Source: an endosymbiont of Lamellibrachia barhami (GTDB lineage Bacteria; Pseudomonadota; Gammaproteobacteria; Chromatiales; Chromatiaceae). Taken from it: 64,000 nucleotides of DNA. A program made the position numbers and the translations under genes. The stretch covers positions 2,992,382 through 3,056,381 of the forward strand of contig NZ_JAAVSH020000001.1 of NCBI RefSeq assembly GCF_011947365.2, written 5' to 3'. Shown piece by piece: positions 16,013 to 31,226 of this stretch (its first letter is position 1; each line of letters starts with the position of its first letter). Under the pieces are notes generated by a model. It worked only from the letters and a program-made list of their open reading frames with translations, searched no databases and was not told the DNA's origin.

Positions 16013-16170
16013 CCAATCACACCCCGATGATGCAGCAGCAATTGCCCCTTGCTACGCAATGGCTAGAGAGCGGTATACCACACACCTACACTGCCACCTA
16101 CACTAATAACCACCCTATACTTAGCCCTGTAATCACGATAATGGTAGTTCGAACCTGTCCCAGGGAGCCA
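16013..16170 (+). repeat. 158-bp repeat copy A ending in a tRNA 3'-half-like sequence
   Basis: It aligns over its whole length with 23860-24018 at roughly 80% by eye, in the same orientation. The last 45 or so bases look like a tRNA 3' half: a T arm GGTAG-TTCGAAC-CTGTC, seven acceptor bases, a discriminator and CCA (16168-16170). The partner 5' acceptor strand is absent. Known for islands: tRNA 3' ends mark att sites. Inferred: copies A and B bound the 16.2-23.9 kb segment. Confidence 0.65.
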
Positions 16171-16180
16171 TACAGAATTT

Positions 16181-16212
16181 GGGCTTAGCGAGAAACCCCT
16201 AGGCCCTTTGTT
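16181..16212 (+). terminator. Terminator after repeat copy A
   Basis: GGGCTTAG pairs with CTAGGCCC (one mismatch) and is followed by TTTGTTT. It sits 10 bp after the tRNA-like CCA, as a tRNA terminator would. Copy B has an equivalent but unrelated hairpin. Confidence 0.55.
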
Positions 16213-16469
16213 TGAGAATAACATTCAGCAAAGAGAAACAGCGCCGACCTTCATTTTTTCACATATCTGGACTTCGTAAGCACTGGCAAAGCCCAGAAGC
16301 CCGCACCACCCAGGATTACCTATCACTCCGTAATAGGAATGTTAATCATTTAAGATGACAGAAGGTCCTCGATAAAGAGGCTAGGACAGAGTGTTTCTGC
16401 GCGCTCATAGCAAATTTCCCTGAAATGCAGAGAATTTTTATTAAATGCAATTATTTTCTTGTAAACGCT

Positions 16470-23859: not shown

Positions 23860-24018
23860 CCAATCACACCCCTATGATGCAGCAGTAATTACCCCTTAAT
23901 GCACAAGGGGTATAGAGCGGCATGCCACACAACCTACACTGCTACCTACACTAATAATCACCCTATACTTAGTTCTGCAATCACGAAGATGGCAGTTCGA
24001 GCCTGTCCCGGGGAACCA
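23860..24018 (+). repeat. 159-bp repeat copy B ending in a tRNA 3'-half-like sequence
   Basis: The partner of 16013-16170 in direct orientation. The end reads as a T arm GGCAG-TTCGAGC-CTGTC, seven acceptor bases CCGGGGA, discriminator A and CCA (24016-24018). The 5' acceptor partner TCCCCGG is not found nearby, so it is only the 3' half of a tRNA. Together with copy A it brackets the cation-transport segment. The rest of 23797-24221 holds no gene. Confidence 0.65.
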
Positions 24019-24027
24019 AACGAAGAC

Positions 24028-24059
24028 AAAGGGTTACAAGAAATCATAACCCCTTTTTT
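24028..24059 (+). terminator. Terminator after repeat copy B
   Basis: GGGTTA and TAACCC form a stem around a 10-base loop, followed by CTTTTTT. It lies 10-12 bp after the tRNA-like CCA. Confidence 0.7.
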
Positions 24060-24221: not shown

Positions 24222-24392
24222 ATGTTGGTACTGACAAGAAGGATCGAAGAGGAGGTTATTTTGCAGGTCGGCGATATCGAGATCGTCGCCAGTCTGGAGG
24301 ATCTTCACGGCAACCAAGCCAAGTTGGGATTTGATGCCCCACCTGAAGTGAAGATTTTACGGGCAGCGCTTTTGGAGAATGCTGATGAATAA
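24222..24392 (+). CDS. Second, divergent CsrA-family protein
   Basis: A 56-residue protein from the ATG at 24222, chosen because GGAGCAGGAG precedes it and the CsrA homology starts there. It keeps MLVLTRR (Leu4 and Arg6 of the RNA-binding strand), GNQAKLGFDAP in place of [11 protein letters not shown], and an Arg at position 47 equivalent to CsrA Arg44. It has two or three extra residues in the first loop (EEEVILQVGD) and a shortened, acidic C-terminus. It lies in the accessory region between repeat B and the STAND gene, not with core genes. It probably binds RNA; whether it competes with or replaces the core CsrA is unknown. Confidence 0.85.
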   Translation: MLVLTRRIEEEVILQVGDIEIVASLEDLHGNQAKLGFDAPPEVKILRAALLENADE

Positions 24393-24642: not shown

Positions 24643-27600
24643 ATGAATTTACCAGACAACCTGCCAACCAGAATCCATCGCAGTTTTCATGAGCTTTCGG
24701 ACGAAGCGATCACAGCTAATGAGCAGACTTCCATTCTGACCCAGATGGGTTGGTCTGGGGCATTTGGGTGGGACGTGCTACTCACGTCCCAGCGTGTTTT
24801 GATCGTTTCAGAGGCTGGGGCGGGTAAGACCTACGAATGCCAGTCCAAGCAGACCGCGCTATGGAAGGCTGGCGAGGCCGCCTTTTATTTGGATCTTGCG
24901 GAGCTTTCCCGCAACAACCTGCATGATCTCCTGCTGGCCGAAGAGGAGGAACGCTTCGACGCCTGGCTCGCATCGCAATCCGACGTCGCTACCATCTTCC
25001 TCGATTCAATCGACGAATTGAAGCTAACGCTTGGGTCGTTTGAAGCAGCGCTAAAGCGCCTCAACAAGGCGATGATGGGGCAGCTCGGTCGTGTCAGGAT
25101 CGTGATCACGACGCGACCGATTCCAGTCGATTATCGCCTGATCCAGCAGCTCCTGCCGATTCCCCAAAAGAACGAGCCGACTGCGAGCGATGAAGCCTTC
25201 GCCGACATCGTGATGAACAAACAGCACGACAACGAGAAGGACGATAAAACCACCAATGCTGTTCCGGAATGGCGGAATGTTGCGCTGATGCCGCTCTCGG
25301 ATGATCAGATCCGGGAGATGGCAGCCCTTCAAGGAGTGACCGAAGCGGATGCACTGATTGAAGATATCCGCAAGCGCAACGCGGAGGATTTTGCCCGGCG
25401 GCTGCAAGACTTGATCGAGCTATGCACCGATTGGCGCGACCATCGTCGTATCCGCACCCACCACGAGCAGGTCGCACATAATATTACAAACAAGCTGAAG
25501 CCACGCACGGATCGAGCAGAAAAGGTGCAGCTCACAGAGGAGAAAGCGCTTGAAGGTGCCAGCCGCCTAGCACTCGCCGCACTGCTTACTCGCAAGCTCA
25601 CCCTCCGTCACAGCGCGGAAGCCGACAAGGGCGGCGAGCCAGGAACTGCCTTGGACCCGGCGGCAATCTTACCCAACTGGTCAGCTAACGAGCGTGAGAC
25701 TCTGTTGGAGAGGGCGCTATTCGGTTTTGCGAGCTATGGCCGAGTGCGGTTCCACCATCGATCGGTAATCGAGTATCTTGCGGCCCAGCGGCTGGTGAGC
25801 AAGCTGGACTGCGGCATGACGATGAAGGCGGTCAAACGCCTGCTGTTTGCCAAGACTCCGCAGGGTATCAAGGTCGTGAAGCCGTCGATGCGGCCAGTCG
25901 CTGCCTGGCTTGCTTTCTCCCAGCCGACCATCTTCTGTGAAGTACGTAATCGCGAGCCCAATGTCTTGCTTGATTATGCCGACCCGGAATCACTGACGCC
26001 ACCGCAGCGCATTGATGCCTTGCGTACCTACGTCGAGCACTACGGTCAAGGTACCTGGCGCGGTATGCATGTTCCGCGCGTACAAGTTCACCGTTTCGCC
26101 TCGAATGAACTCGCCCCTGAAGTCCTGCGTCTGTGGAAATCAGGGATCGAGAATCCAGAAGTTCGGGAGCTACTTTTGGAACTCGTCGCAGCAGTCCCGA
26201 TGCGGGACGGCGCCGACATCGCCTATTCAGTCGTCATGCAGGGCGATGCGGATAGTGGCGAGCGTATAGACGCGCTTGAAGCACTGATAAAGCTTAACGA
26301 CTCTCGCCTTGAGGCGGTGACCCTCTCTATGGAGACCGATCCAGATATCTGGTCCAATCGGCTCCTTAAAGCCTCGATACAGAAGCTCTTCCCAACACAT
26401 ATCCCAGTTGAGCGCTTGTGCCACATTCTCTCGCAAGTCACCGAATCACCGCACAACGCACACGACCTAAACTGGTTCTGGACGCACTCGATTGCCGAAG
26501 GCGATATGACGCACAGCTACCTTGAAGAATTTTGCGCTGGGCTAACCAATCTTGTGACTGAGAGCGCTGAATGGAATAAGGAGCGGCATCACATAGTAAC
26601 TCCAAGGCAACATCTCGTTGCCCCGCTTGCCGCTGTCTGTCTTCGCCAGCTGAAGGAAGGGGGCCCATCGGGCGTTGTAGTCAACTCAAGTGTTATGGCC
26701 TTACGGTTTGCCCGAGACGAATACAGTCACAACGAGCCGGCCTCCGACTTGCGGAAGACGCTTTCGCAGTTGCCGGCACCGGCGAGGGAAGCGGCATTTT
26801 GGGCCGATGATGCCTTCAATCAGAGTCTTCACTCGCAAGAAGATCCGTGGAACCGCCTCTACGAGGTCGGCTATCGCGGCGCAATCAGATTGAATGCCAG
26901 TCAGGACGCGAGCTGGATCCTGGCGAACCTCTCAGATCAGAAGCGGCCAATAGCTGAGCGCGCCATGATGCTCGAAACAGCGGTACGCCAAGTGTGGGAC
27001 GGTCAAGGCGAATGGCGCGACTATGTTCTGACACTGAAGGACCGTGTTGCCGATTGCCCCACGCTCGCGGCGCGTATCGACGACCACCTCAATCCTGCCC
27101 CTGTAAACCGCGAACTTGCCCGCATGGAAGCACAGCATCAGAAGCGTTCGAAGCAGGCTAAACGCCGCCAAGCCAAGGATCATGCGAGCTGGATCTTGTT
27201 CTGGCGAGATGTGGCCAACAATCCGGAAACAGCTTTCAGTCCCGACCGAGCCGGAAATACCGCCTGGAACTTATGGCAAGCGATGGAACGCTCCGGCTTG
27301 GAAAGCCGCGCCTCCGGGTGGAACCGCCGTTTCATAGAGCAGCATTTCAGCAAAGAGATCGCCGATCGGCTACGCTCGGCGATGACGAGCATCTGGCGCG
27401 ACGACCGGCCCACACTTCGCAGTGAGCGCCCTGAGGGCGAGAAGGGAACCTTCCTGATTCGCTGGCAGCTCGGTCTTGCGGCTATTGCAGCGGAAGCCGA
27501 AGACCCAAGCTGGGCGCGGAAGCTGCCTGTCGATGAAGCGAAATTAGCGGCTCGTTACGCGCCGATCGAATTGAATGGCTTCCCGTCTTGGCTTGAGAGC

Positions 27601-29013
27601 CTTGCTGAAGCGCATCCTACCGCCGTCGAAGATGTGCTCGGCCCGGAGCTCTTAATCGAACTAGACGAGATCGCCACCACCCATTCTCATTCTACTTCCT
27701 TGCAGAATATTAGTTATGCTGCCCCGCCCCTTGCTACCTTATTTTTTCCGAGACTCCGAGCCTGGTTCGATGAGAACGTACAACGCATTCGGGAGGGCGA
27801 GGATAACAATGGAGTGGCGGAGCGCCTCCGAAAGGTAGTCGACGTACTGTTGAAGTACGGGGACAATGAGACGCGTGAGCATATTCGCACGATGGCGGTG
27901 CAGCAGCTCGCTAGCGAACTTGATCCAGTCTTTGGGTATGTATGGCTTCCTATCCTGATGCGTTTGGATCCCGGCGCAGGGGCAGAACAACTCGAGCAGG
28001 GCTTGAGTGGTGTAGAACCCGAGCCACAAGGGCCGGGCGTGGTTTGGATTGCTCTACTGTTCGGAGATCGCCATAGCGGAGGGCTGATCGATCTCCGCAA
28101 ACCCGAATTTACTCCGGCCTTGCTGCTTCGGCTTGTGTGTCTTGCTTATCGCTATGTGCGGCCTTCGGAAGACATCATTCATGAGAGCACCTACTCTCCT
28201 GGCAACCGAGATCATGCCCAGCAAGGGCGCGATGCCCTACTAAGTGCCCTCTTGGACGCAAAGGGCCCCGAAGGTTGGGAGGCGAAAATCGAAATGGCCG
28301 ACAATCCGTTATTTGCGCATTTTCGCGATCGGGCCTTATTGCTTGCGCGCGAGAAGGCAGCCGAGGAATCCGATGGAGTGGCGCTCTCCGAGTCCGAGGT
28401 AATCGCTCTCGACCGCAACCGGGAAGCGCCCCCTGCCACCCGTGACGAGATGTTCGCGCTCCTGGTAGACCGCCTTGACGACCTAGACGATCTGTTGCTT
28501 CACGACGATTCACCGCGCGCTGCATGGGCTGGAATTTCCGACGAGAAAGTAATGCGCCGTGAAATCGCGCGCGAACTGCGCAATGCCGCTAACCACGCTT
28601 ACACCGTCGATCAGGAGAGCGTGACGGCCGACGAGAAGGAAACCGACATCAGGTTGCGTTCCGCTATTTCTGATCAACAGGCAGTGATAGAGCTGAAGCT
28701 AGGTGATGGACGCACGGGTCGTGACTTGCGTGATACCGTCAAGGAGCAACTCGTGACTAAATACATGGCACCGGACACATGCCGTTCCGGGTGTCTGTTG
28801 GTCGCCGTATCCAAAGATCGCACTTGGGAGCACCCAGATTCCAACAAGCGCCTTAATGTTGCCGGGCTCAAAGCAATGCTTCAGGCGGAGGCGTCGAATA
28901 TCGTTACCGAGATGGGATTGGCTCTGCTGCTCACCACTCGAGTACTTGATCTGCGGCCACGTCTTCCGACCGAGAAAGCGTCGGCGACGGTACAGAAGCG
29001 GGAGCTAGTTTAA
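24643..29013 (+). CDS. STAND/NACHT-like NTPase with C-terminal nuclease-like domain
   Basis: A 1456-residue cytoplasmic protein. The P-loop SEAGAGKT is at residues 56-63, the Walker B FLDSIDEL at 119-126 and a sensor-like IVITTRP at 153-159, as in NACHT/STAND ATPases. FHHRSVIEYLAAQRL near 369-383 is the usual STAND winged-helix end. About 900 residues of helical, HEAT/TPR-like sequence follow, the likely sensor or scaffold. Near 1335-1390 the order Asp (ETDIRLR), then IELKLGDG, then QLVTKYM matches a PD-(D/E)XK nuclease core. Defence STAND proteins usually carry the effector at the N-terminus, so a C-terminal nuclease is unusual. It stands alone between a second csrA and a broken ftsE, in an accessory region. 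A role in anti-phage defence is inference. Confidence 0.8.
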   Translation: MNLPDNLPTRIHRSFHELSDEAITANEQTSILTQMGWSGAFGWDVLLTSQRVLIVSEAGAGKTYECQSKQTALWKAGEAAFYLDLAELSRNNLHDLLLAEEEERFDAWLASQSDVATIFLDSIDELKLTLGSFEAALKRLNKAMMGQLGRVRIVITTRPIPVDYRLIQQLLPIPQKNEPTASDEAFADIVMNKQHDNEKDDKTTNAVPEWRNVALMPLSDDQIREMAALQGVTEADALIEDIRKRNAEDFARRLQDLIELCTDWRDHRRIRTHHEQVAHNITNKLKPRTDRAEKVQLTEEKALEGASRLALAALLTRKLTLRHSAEADKGGEPGTALDPAAILPNWSANERETLLERALFGFASYGRVRFHHRSVIEYLAAQRLVSKLDCGMTMKAVKRLLFAKTPQGIKVVKPSMRPVAAWLAFSQPTIFCEVRNREPNVLLDYADPESLTPPQRIDALRTYVEHYGQGTWRGMHVPRVQVHRFASNELAPEVLRLWKSGIENPEVRELLLELVAAVPMRDGADIAYSVVMQGDADSGERIDALEALIKLNDSRLEAVTLSMETDPDIWSNRLLKASIQKLFPTHIPVERLCHILSQVTESPHNAHDLNWFWTHSIAEGDMTHSYLEEFCAGLTNLVTESAEWNKERHHIVTPRQHLVAPLAAVCLRQLKEGGPSGVVVNSSVMALRFARDEYSHNEPASDLRKTLSQLPAPAREAAFWADDAFNQSLHSQEDPWNRLYEVGYRGAIRLNASQDASWILANLSDQKRPIAERAMMLETAVRQVWDGQGEWRDYVLTLKDRVADCPTLAARIDDHLNPAPVNRELARMEAQHQKRSKQAKRRQAKDHASWILFWRDVANNPETAFSPDRAGNTAWNLWQAMERSGLESRASGWNRRFIEQHFSKEIADRLRSAMTSIWRDDRPTLRSERPEGEKGTFLIRWQLGLAAIAAEAEDPSWARKLPVDEAKLAARYAPIELNGFPSWLESLAEAHPTAVEDVLGPELLIELDEIATTHSHSTSLQNISYAAPPLATLFFPRLRAWFDENVQRIREGEDNNGVAERLRKVVDVLLKYGDNETREHIRTMAVQQLASELDPVFGYVWLPILMRLDPGAGAEQLEQGLSGVEPEPQGPGVVWIALLFGDRHSGGLIDLRKPEFTPALLLRLVCLAYRYVRPSEDIIHESTYSPGNRDHAQQGRDALLSALLDAKGPEGWEAKIEMADNPLFAHFRDRALLLAREKAAEESDGVALSESEVIALDRNREAPPATRDEMFALLVDRLDDLDDLLLHDDSPRAAWAGISDEKVMRREIARELRNAANHAYTVDQESVTADEKETDIRLRSAISDQQAVIELKLGDGRTGRDLRDTVKEQLVTKYMAPDTCRSGCLLVAVSKDRTWEHPDSNKRLNVAGLKAMLQAEASNIVTEMGLALLLTTRVLDLRPRLPTEKASATVQKRELV

Positions 29014-29489: not shown

Positions 29490-29980
29490 CAGCCTGCTGC
29501 TGGAGATCAACGACGAACTGGCTTCACCGCGCGGGCGATGCCGACTCCGCTGCTGTTCTCCGCCGGAGAGGGTGATTGGCGCTGCCTTCTCTTTGTTCAG
29601 CAGCCCGACCTTATCCAGTGCGGTGCACGCGGCGGGAAAGATCTCCTTGTATCCCATGCCCGGAGACCACCAACGGCAGCACCACGTTATCGAAGATTCT
29701 GGTGCGGTCACAGCAGCCGGTGGTCCTGAAGATCTATCCCACCTCGCGCCGGTGGTAGGGAATCTGGCTGTTCTTCAGGCGGGTGAGGCTGCGGTCGTTG
29801 ACGTGCACCTGGCTCGCTGGAGCGTTCCAGCAGGCCAATCAGTTTAAGCAGGGTACTCTTGCCTGCGCCTGAGTGGCCCGTGAGGAAGACCATCTCTCCC
29901 GCTTCGATACGAAAACTGACGCCGGCCAGGCCGGTATGTCCGCCGGGGTAGCGCTTGCTGACGTTATCGAAGTGAATCAT
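29490..29980 (-). pseudogene. ftsE: Cell-division ATPase FtsE, shattered remnant
   Basis: From the ATG at 29980, 5 bp after the ftsY stop in transcription order, the first frame reads FtsE up to GHSGAGKSTLLKLIGLLERS (Walker A intact). The homology then jumps frames: VNDRSLTRLKNSQIPYHRRE in another, DNVVLPLVVSG after another shift, and GMGYKEIFPAACTALDKVGL to ITLSGGEQQR (the signature) in a third. Soon after it is lost near 29490, so Walker B is absent. At least three indels and a 3' truncation make it non-functional. FtsE normally pairs with FtsX to activate septal hydrolases; ftsX is not found downstream. Confidence 0.85.
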
Positions 29981-29985
29981 CAGAT

Positions 29986-30975
29986 CTATTGCTCGAACAG
30001 GGCGTCCACAAACTCTTCGGCATCGAACTCCTGCAGGTCTTCGATGGCCTCGCCGACGCCGATAAACCGGATCGGTACTTTCACCTTGTCGGCGATGGCG
30101 AAGATCACGCCGCCTTTTGCAGTGCCGTCCAGTTTGGTGATGACGATGCCGCTCAGTCCAACCGTCTTGTTGAACTGCACCGCCTGGTTGACCGCATTCT
30201 GTCCGGTACCCGCATCGACCACCAGCAGCACCTCGTGGGGCGAGGAGGGGTCTATCTTCTTCATTACCCGGGCGATCTTTGCCAGTTCGTCCATCAGATT
30301 GGCCTTGGTGTGGAGACGGCCGGCGGTGTCGGCAATCAGTACATCGACCTTTCTGGCTGTGGCGGCTTTAAGGGCGTCGAAGATGACAGACGCGGAGTCG
30401 GCGCCGGTGTGCTGGGCGATCACCGGTACCTCGTTGCGTTCGCCCCATGCCTGCAATTGCTCCACGGCTGCGGCGCGAAAGGTATCGCCTGCGGCAAGCA
30501 TCACGCTCTCGCCATCCATCTGGAGCTTGCGCGCCAGCTTGCCGATGGTGGTGGTCTTGCCGGCGCCGTTGATGCCGACCATCAGCACCACCAGGGGTTT
30601 GTCCTGTTCAGCTTTTGCCTGCGGGGCCTCGTTGGCTTGCAGAATGTCGAGCAGCTGCGCCTTGAGAAGACGGCTCAGCGCCTCTGGGTCGGCAAGTTCT
30701 TTGCGTTTTACCCGCCCGGTCAGATCGTCGATGATGCGGCTGGTGGCATCGACGCCCACATCGGCGGTGAGCAGCAGGGTCTCCAGGTCCTCCAGCAGTT
30801 CATCATCGATGGTCTTGCGGCCCAGTACCAGGTCGGCCAGGCCGTCACTGAGGTTGTGGCGGGTGCGCGCAAGACGCTCTTTGAGACGGGAGAAGAGACC
30901 CTGTTTCTCTTGTGGTGACGGTTCGGGTATTGCCGCCTGCTCCGTTTTTTTCTTCTTTCCAAATCCGAACATGTA
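29986..30975 (-). CDS. ftsY: Signal recognition particle receptor FtsY
   Basis: A 329-residue SRP GTPase from the ATG at 30975 (MFGFGKKKK). It has a short, charged A-region of about 40 residues, an N domain (LSDGLADLVLGRKTIDDELL) and a G domain with GINGAGKTTTIGKLA, DTFRAAAVEQL, DTAGRLHTK and TKLDGTAKGG. The end is IGVGEAIEDLQEFDAEEFVDALF. It receives ribosome-SRP complexes at the inner membrane. The acidic A domain is shorter than in E. coli, as in many other bacteria. It is upstream of the broken ftsE and divergent from the M16 genes. Confidence 0.96.
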   Translation of the reverse strand, partial: YMFGFGKKKKTEQAAIPEPSPQEKQGLFSRLKERLARTRHNLSDGLADLVLGRKTIDDELLEDLETLLLTADVGVDATSRIIDDLTGRVKRKELADPEALSRLLKAQLLDILQANEAPQAKAEQDKPLVVLMVGINGAGKTTTIGKLARKLQMDGESVMLAAGDTFRAAAVEQLQAWGERNEVPVIAQHTGADSASVIFDALKAATARKVDVLIADTAGRLHTKANLMDELAKIARVMKKIDPSSPHEVLLVVDAGTGQNAVNQAVQFNKTVGLSGIVITKLDGTAKGGVIFAIADKVKVPIRFIGVGEAIEDLQEFDAEEFVDALFEQ

Positions 30976-31226
30976 GAGGTTTTCCTGCTTGGTGTGAGGA
31001 ACTCTATCGGTTCTCTGCACTCATAATTTTCTGTTTGGACAATCCCGGCAAGCTTTGGAACAATGCTGTCAGGATATTAGTCAACAAATACAAATGAAGT
31101 GCTGAACGGCTCCATGAGAGTTATTCGTCACTTTTTAAACGGACATTCTTACAAGCCGACAACTGCATGTAAAACGGATTTACCCTGTTTTGATCTGCTT
31201 TGGTGGCTGACACAGAGGTTTTTTTG

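Follow-up and report, generated by a model that had tools for sequence, protein, structure and literature searches.

A HyoA-family gene in the window

The DNA inspected in this work, hereafter the window, is a 64,000-nt stretch from the genome of an endosymbiont of Lamellibrachia barhami (contig NZ_JAAVSH020000001.1, positions 2,992,382–3,056,381 of the forward strand). At positions 24643–29013 (+) it carries a stand-alone gene, one intact open frame from an ATG codon, that encodes a HyoA-family protein of 1456 residues. Three parts were recognized in this protein: a NACHT ATPase with a winged-helix region (residues about 43–389; 24769–25809, +), a helical solenoid (residues about 394–1286; 25822–28500, +) and a predicted PD-(D/E)XK nuclease domain (residues about 1301–1436; 28543–28950, +). 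The solenoid would serve as a sensor and as an arm for oligomer formation, and the nuclease would be the effector. The NACHT–winged-helix fold, the HEAT-like solenoid and the nuclease fold are those predicted by structure models.

The protein matched the NCBIfam model NF058534 (antiphage_HyoA), a curated equivalog named 'NACHT domain-containing antiphage protein HyoA', with 1578.3 bits (1578.2 bits in the genome-level scan) against a cut-off of 1200, residues 11–1440 aligning with positions 1–1430 of the model. The match to the sister family EruA (NF058535) was of 124.1 bits (E = 6e-36, residues 213–1387); since the cut-off is 1000, the window protein is not an EruA. The model one number below HyoA, NF058533, is ProA, another antiphage model, while NF058536 is unrelated. 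Judged by its sequence, the window protein is a new sequence within a family already named antiphage by NCBI. The original prediction, made from the DNA sequence alone, had seen in this gene the best candidate for an undescribed defense system; this part must be withdrawn, HyoA being already curated (1578 bits, cut-off 1200). A Pfam scan of the protein gave three matches, all under their cut-offs, and a PADLOC 2023 scan gave none; as both were uninformative, the family would have seemed new without NCBIfam. A search of a literature collection that lacks bioRxiv as a whole and most subscription papers found no paper naming HyoA and, for EruA, only an unrelated Escherichia coli regulator of the same name. 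The curated NCBIfam name is therefore the sole evidence that the family has been tested.

The family is large: scoring of 7996 candidates from the protein database, window included, gave at least 1011 members at E ≤ 0.001. The 120 proteins listed from this search, window included, were all at least 53% identical, and among the matches listed the closest other full-length relative was 77% identical. The Walker A motif lay within the first 120 residues in 118 of these 120 proteins.

The N-terminal half contains a predicted NACHT-type ATPase

The Walker A motif SEAGAGKT (residues 56–63; 24808–24831, +), the Walker B motif FLDSIDEL (residues 119–126; 24997–25020, +), the sensor-like ITTRP (residues 155–159; 25105–25119, +) and the segment FHHRSVIEYLAA of the winged-helix region (residues 370–381; 25750–25785, +) were all found in the translation as quoted by the original prediction, and so were the C-terminal motifs described below. 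In the structure model, ITTRP corresponds to a strand (151–157), and FHHRSVIEYLAA to a strand (367–370) followed by a helix (373–389). Among the 120 listed proteins, Walker A residues G59, G61 and K62 were conserved at 98%. An alignment of the N-terminal half, comprising the window protein and 122 relatives (123 sequences; P0005 and P0032 excluded), contained ten invariant columns, D121, D124, E125 and R158 among them.

Foldseek analysis of the N-half model returned Avs4 bound to a phage portal as its top match, and in a structure comparison the model was nearest to NLRC4, NLRP and NOD2 (Z-scores up to 16.1). The features of a STAND/NACHT NTPase (Walker A, Walker B, winged-helix region and NACHT-type fold) were thus all present, as judged from motifs and model. 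In the predicted structure the NTPase fold begins at about residue 43, and the stretch before it is mostly of low confidence and without a folded domain; this agrees with the earlier placing of the ATPase at the extreme N-terminus. The run of about 900 helical residues that had been noted after it was likewise borne out by the predicted models.

The C-terminal domain is a predicted PD-(D/E)XK nuclease

The C-terminal half was modeled as a fragment of 717 residues (protein residue = fragment number + 739). The AlphaFold model shows a helix (1301–1315), three strands (1320–1324, 1336–1340 and 1346–1353), a second helix (1359–1374) and a fourth strand (1382–1389), that is, an alpha-beta-beta-beta-alpha-beta core in which the D and the ExK lie on neighboring strands. 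The predicted catalytic aspartate, D1335 (28645–28647, +), stands directly before strand 2; the predicted catalytic ExK, E1350-L-K1352 (28690–28698, +; within IELK, 1349–1352), lies on strand 3, and QLVTKY (residues 1369–1374; 28747–28764, +) lies on the helix that follows. The predicted local distance difference test score (pLDDT) of the domain was 89–96 per ten-residue block, except for 72–76 over residues 1320–1339.

Ten residues were invariant in an alignment of the C-terminal half (122 sequences): R929, W1101, R1305, D1335, E1350, K1352, L1362, Q1369, Y1374 and G1383. This alignment included the window protein and 121 relatives, namely 117 of the 119 other listed proteins plus L002, L004, L008 and L009, two of these four being only 23–25% identical to the window protein; L003, in which the domain is absent, P0005 and P0032 were excluded. 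A set of 16 tails, in which 14 of the 15 others were 20–32% identical to that of the window, kept the series E, L, D, E, K, L, Q, L, Y, G, including E1301, although this agreement is partly due to selection, since the tails were picked for visibly having the pattern. The pattern D..ExK..Q..Y was present in the last 260 residues of 118 of the 120 listed members (window included) and of 27 of 33 divergent relatives; the two listed members without the exact pattern carry ELK followed by QF or QI. The same pattern was absent from all 608 blocks taken elsewhere in these 153 proteins and from all 153 shuffled tails. At the level of sequence, conservation of the motif therefore exceeds what is expected by chance. 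A nuclease-like domain at the C-terminus, as originally proposed, is thus upheld by a model with nuclease topology and by the invariant D, ExK, Q and Y.

Two database matches were set aside. Superantigen-like protein 7, found in the PDB with the C-terminal profile (E = 0.0021), covers a helix-strand part of the profile (positions 61–122) and misses the D and ExK strands. The sole match in a PDB sequence search with the whole protein, C3HR3_4r (a designed repeat protein, to judge from the name), had an E-value of 0.14 and was taken as chance.

The C-terminal domain is exchanged among divergent relatives

A search with the relative from genome G088 (L003/L012) provided 33 divergent proteins, the query (P0121) being counted. 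The nuclease was kept in 27 of them and absent from six. One of the six, P0135, has a PNP_UDP_1 nucleoside phosphorylase in its place, at residues 1225–1479 (Pfam, E = 1.4e-18). Three others (P0121, P0122 and P0123) end in short Asn/Gly-containing tails soon after the solenoid, and P0141 ends in another Asn/Gly-containing stretch plus a helical segment. The last, P0136, stops within the first helix of the nuclease; its gene is possibly broken or cut, and P0136 was not counted as an exchange.

At the L012 locus the tail of the receptor reads NFNDPVMVQAIGNGNTIHN. Fifteen bases past its stop codon, on the same strand, begins a gene for a protein of 112 residues (L012 9221–9559), which starts with MSEF followed by NFNAPVTTQVVGDGATIIN; 11 of 19 residues are identical to the receptor tail. 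No match as good was obtained in 5000 shuffles or among 5301 other segments of the receptors, and the score of the pair was 57, the best among 152 other tails being 27. P0155, which is 68% identical to the 112-residue partner, has a nearly identical motif, preceded by about 75 other residues; it was the one other relative of the partner among 12 candidates at the sensitivity of the search. The tails of P0122 and P0123 are alike (score 63). The tail motifs of P0122, P0123 and P0141 were rejected as matches to the L012 partner (scores of 20–23, versus 57), as was the idea that the helical part of the partner and the helical end of P0141 form one domain (334 of 2000 shuffles reached the score). 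From sequence, the motif pair at this one locus looks like the paired amyloid signaling motifs of NOD-like receptor (NLR)–effector genes, with the ends swapped.

The C-terminus thus looks like an exchangeable effector slot; the best evidence is that one and the same place is taken by a nuclease in some proteins, by a phosphorylase or a short relay-like tail in others. We tentatively extend this to a wider proposal, in which we place a little less than even confidence: HyoA, EruA and their kin would be immune receptors whose polarity is reversed and whose C-terminus takes a plug-in weapon. A common NACHT switch and solenoid would trigger a DNA nuclease (window protein) or a phosphorylase that depletes nucleotides (P0135), or would signal, through an amyloid-like motif at the very end of the receptor, to a small separate protein encoded by the adjoining gene (L012).

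Distribution and neighbors of the relatives

The nearest relative among the genomes examined (L008) is 74% identical to the window protein, and the genes for Wadjet JetA, JetB and JetC begin about 0.6 kb from it. The same genome also contains an EruA gene (1434 bits), around which four of six scanned neighbors are PDC-S02, PD-Lambda-2_B-like, PDC-S05 and AbiEi proteins. In the congener G001 a distant relative comes after a PDC-S01 protein, with an overlap of 17 bases according to the listed starts. In G013, three proteins were scanned on one side, and one of them is mad3-like along part of the model; on the other side PADLOC matched none of the four proteins scanned, two of which are a GTPase of the EF-G type and a tRNA synthetase of the Glu/Gln type. 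The protein that adjoins the HyoA homologue of G013 (L014 5010–6080, 356 residues) has a start that by eye looks like a eukaryotic-type actin; PADLOC gave nothing for it.

Relatives were found in 66 plasmid records, 33 of them conjugative; in 14 records one place covered 80% of the query. In seven plasmid stretches no named neighbor recurred directly beside the gene (genes annotated as 'hypothetical' were not compared), and TIR, DUF262, HEPN or HepT, toxin–antitoxin, integrase and insertion sequence genes lay nearby. Two records listed as phage are contigs labeled Acinetobacter phage, and the one examined contains bacterial genes. A 38% identical relative occurs on two viral contigs; in L096 (2984–11401) it is flanked by a tape-measure and a minor-tail gene and runs on the opposite strand, and phage tail families were matched by three of the nine frames scanned around it; by its sequence context, the L096 relative is a phage-carried copy. 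The nuclease pattern was present at 17 of 22 loci checked; four of the other five end with the stretch (for one of these, L087, the frame examined was not that of the relative), and the fifth is again the L012 locus.

The distribution of the family is patchy and mobile, and several relatives are in defense company (Wadjet, the defense island around the EruA gene, PDC-S01), which supports a defense role. The relatives at the loci examined share no common housekeeping operon, although some outer genes of the G013 locus are of housekeeping type. Defense islands had been suggested as the place to look for homologues, and a consistent location in housekeeping operons as what would speak against the prediction; the neighborhoods found did not bear out the latter.

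Genomic setting of the gene

Directly before the HyoA gene, within the accessory region and on the same strand, lies a gene for a CsrA-family protein of 56 residues (24222–24392, +; Pfam, E = 1.9e-12). Downstream, on the opposite strand, there is a remnant of ftsE and then ftsY (29986–31020). The gene is therefore stand-alone, as had been proposed. Comparison by blastn with stretches from five congeners (L033–L037) showed colinearity with the window in all five (91.6–93.6%), which begins at 29525/29526 and continues up to where the fetched stretch ends, at about 32487; to the left, all five matches halt at 29525/29526, even though the stretches from the congeners run about 1 kb further. Position 29526, inside ftsE, is thus the right edge of an accessory region. 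No HyoA match in the five congeners rises above the cut-off; one of them has a distant match of 188 bits elsewhere. In congener G005, positions 1–302 of its stretch (L034) match G000:C1:88117–88418, about 2.9 Mb off on the contig; positions 303–978 have no match in the window genome, and the remainder matches only other ABC-transporter genes plus the ftsE remnant.

Upstream of the HyoA gene lies the 3′ part of a tRNA-Asn gene (23979–24059, +; 80% identity with a tRNA-Asn locus of this genome, 83 columns aligned), which resembles an att scar; the 3′ part of a second tRNA-Asn gene is found at 16130–16213. Both are 80–83% like intact tRNA-Asn genes and flank a segment with a P-type ATPase and a KefC-like gene. 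They are possible att scars, of the kind left by integrating elements. The break shared by the congeners, their lack of a HyoA match above the cut-off and the tRNA-Asn scars place the HyoA gene in accessory DNA, at a point of rearrangement; an accessory location had been part of the original prediction.

Two side observations concern the genome. The ftsE beside ftsY is broken (29526–29983, −), its family match being split with a stop, and none of the 46 matches of the ftsE family in the window genome comes up to the cut-off. Since, in addition, the corresponding congener stretch is mostly unmatched, the cell may be without an intact FtsE, or the assembly may be wrong at this place. In the same genome, a frame of 1852 residues (G000:C1:2071427–2076679) is ProA-like, with 720, 413 and 22 bits in three pieces for a cut-off of 1500; this is perhaps a general domain match, as 7 of 14 control genomes also match.

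Proposed mechanism and alternatives

These observations make a defense role of the window protein likely. We consider it fairly probable that this HyoA-family STAND (NACHT) protein, with its predicted N-terminal ATPase and predicted C-terminal PD-(D/E)XK nuclease, senses a phage product, assembles and would then cut DNA, aborting the infection. By analogy with other STAND proteins, the NACHT module would hold ADP in the resting state, with the long solenoid folded back. Binding of a phage protein by the solenoid would open the receptor, exchange for ATP would allow a NACHT ring or tetramer to assemble, and the C-terminal nucleases, gathered in this assembly, could be activated and break down the DNA of both phage and host.

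Several results weigh against this reading. The model is comparatively uncertain at the strand carrying D1335 (pLDDT 72–76; 76 for the D1335 block). Profile scans of the 16 tails gave weak matches, in one tail each, to HSDR_N (E = 0.1), LmuA (E = 2e-5) and Cas4 (E = 0.019), and in the Pfam scan of the tails unrelated families surpassed HSDR_N (FliK hook protein, 0.004; TetR_C_13, 0.005; DUF6286, 0.02). Alignment with HsdR N-domains by hhalign was in the correct register with a probability of only 6% (P = 0.006; controls with NACHT, solenoid and FtsY, P = 0.03, 0.27 and 0.54); the Cap4 nuclease (PF14130), meant as a second comparison, was present in one of 114 genomes, too few for an alignment. 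Foldseek found no match at E ≤ 0.001 for the 717-residue C half, solenoid included; among the matches listed by Foldseek and VIA-align were helical-repeat proteins and no nuclease. The absence of a nuclease from the list says little, since the query was the 717-residue model and the list was filled by the solenoid. Pfam NACHT (PF05729) did not match the window protein at E ≤ 1, and matched P0122, P0135, P0141 and L009 weakly, always under the cut-off. PADLOC gave only weak matches for four other window proteins (best E = 0.004), and the solenoid is given its role of sensor by analogy.

PD-(D/E)XK domains are characteristic of restriction enzymes, and the solenoid and nuclease might instead recognize foreign DNA directly, with the NACHT ATPase as motor or gate and neither a phage-protein trigger nor suicide. 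The HsdR N-domain was the best of the four profile partners, though weak, and carriage by plasmids and phages fits any anti-DNA role. The ATPase part, however, resembles the switches of NLR/NACHT proteins, and a phosphorylase or a short tail in the place of the nuclease would make no restriction enzyme, so that direct restriction seems unlikely. It is also doubtful, to a like degree, that the same switch drives a domain that cuts RNA or tRNA, or only nicks plasmid DNA. The fold alone leaves the substrate unfixed, and some PD-(D/E)XK enzymes act on RNA, but D..ExK..Q..Y is the arrangement seen in members that act on DNA. In bNACHT25 and bNACHT32, the PD-(D/E)XK effectors, which are N-terminal, degrade DNA (PMC12169576).

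The gene might also serve competition between elements, as an anti-plasmid or addiction function, rather than defense against phages. A plasmid location is frequent, tRNA-Asn scars lie upstream in the window, toxin–antitoxin genes are found within 9 kb on some plasmids, and L008 neighbors Wadjet, an anti-plasmid system. The family was, however, named antiphage by NCBI, and none of the seven plasmid stretches has an annotated antitoxin immediately next to the gene; we regard this explanation as quite improbable. Phage-triggered assembly of the receptor and its nuclease remains our preferred reading.

Comparison with known systems

The window protein is matched by HyoA (NF058534) above the cut-off over nearly its full length, and the EruA of G092 has the same domain order, with a C-terminal D..EVK..QL..Y. 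As regards the window alone, the finding is a modest one, an added member of a family named by NCBI; the C-terminal exchange among its relatives is the new element and the part worth following. STAND immune receptors are usually described as having an N-terminal effector and a C-terminal sensor. A widespread family whose ATPase comes first and whose exchangeable effector comes last would show the switch driving effectors from the other end; if this is true, an effector can be driven from either end of a STAND receptor, and the window protein offers a readily assayed nuclease version with which to test it.

Avs proteins, Avs4 included, share with the window protein an NTPase followed by a long helical repeat. 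Their effectors are N-terminal, whereas the window protein has its NTPase from about residue 43 onward and its nuclease-like domain at the C-terminus (1301–1436). The tripartite order of Avs and bNACHT proteins is therefore not that of the window protein, and the reversal noted in the original prediction, NTPase first and nuclease-like domain last, holds.

As in the STAND receptors with amyloid motifs (bacterial amyloid signaling sequences, BASS, and fungal NLRs), the motif at the receptor end of L012 recurs at the start of the next gene. In the pairs described in PMC8086366, the NLR motif is N-terminal and that of the Bell effector C-terminal; L012 has them swapped. Unlike L012, the window protein ends in a predicted nuclease, without an amyloid-like motif. 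A C-terminal effector has precedent in the C-terminal glycosyltransferase fusions to STAND modules, predicted effectors, that are reported in PMC8195603.

In bNACHT25 and bNACHT32, NACHT and a PD-(D/E)XK DNase are likewise joined in a single antiphage protein (PMC12169576); their nuclease is N-terminal and their sensor C-terminal, the reverse of the window protein. The same paper gives the order N-terminal effector, central NTPase and C-terminal sensor for all STAND NTPases, and the DefensePredictor paper states that NACHT defense proteins typically activate an N-terminal effector (PMC13092281). It is against the order given in these two sources that the polarity of HyoA, with its ATPase first and its predicted nuclease last, stands out.

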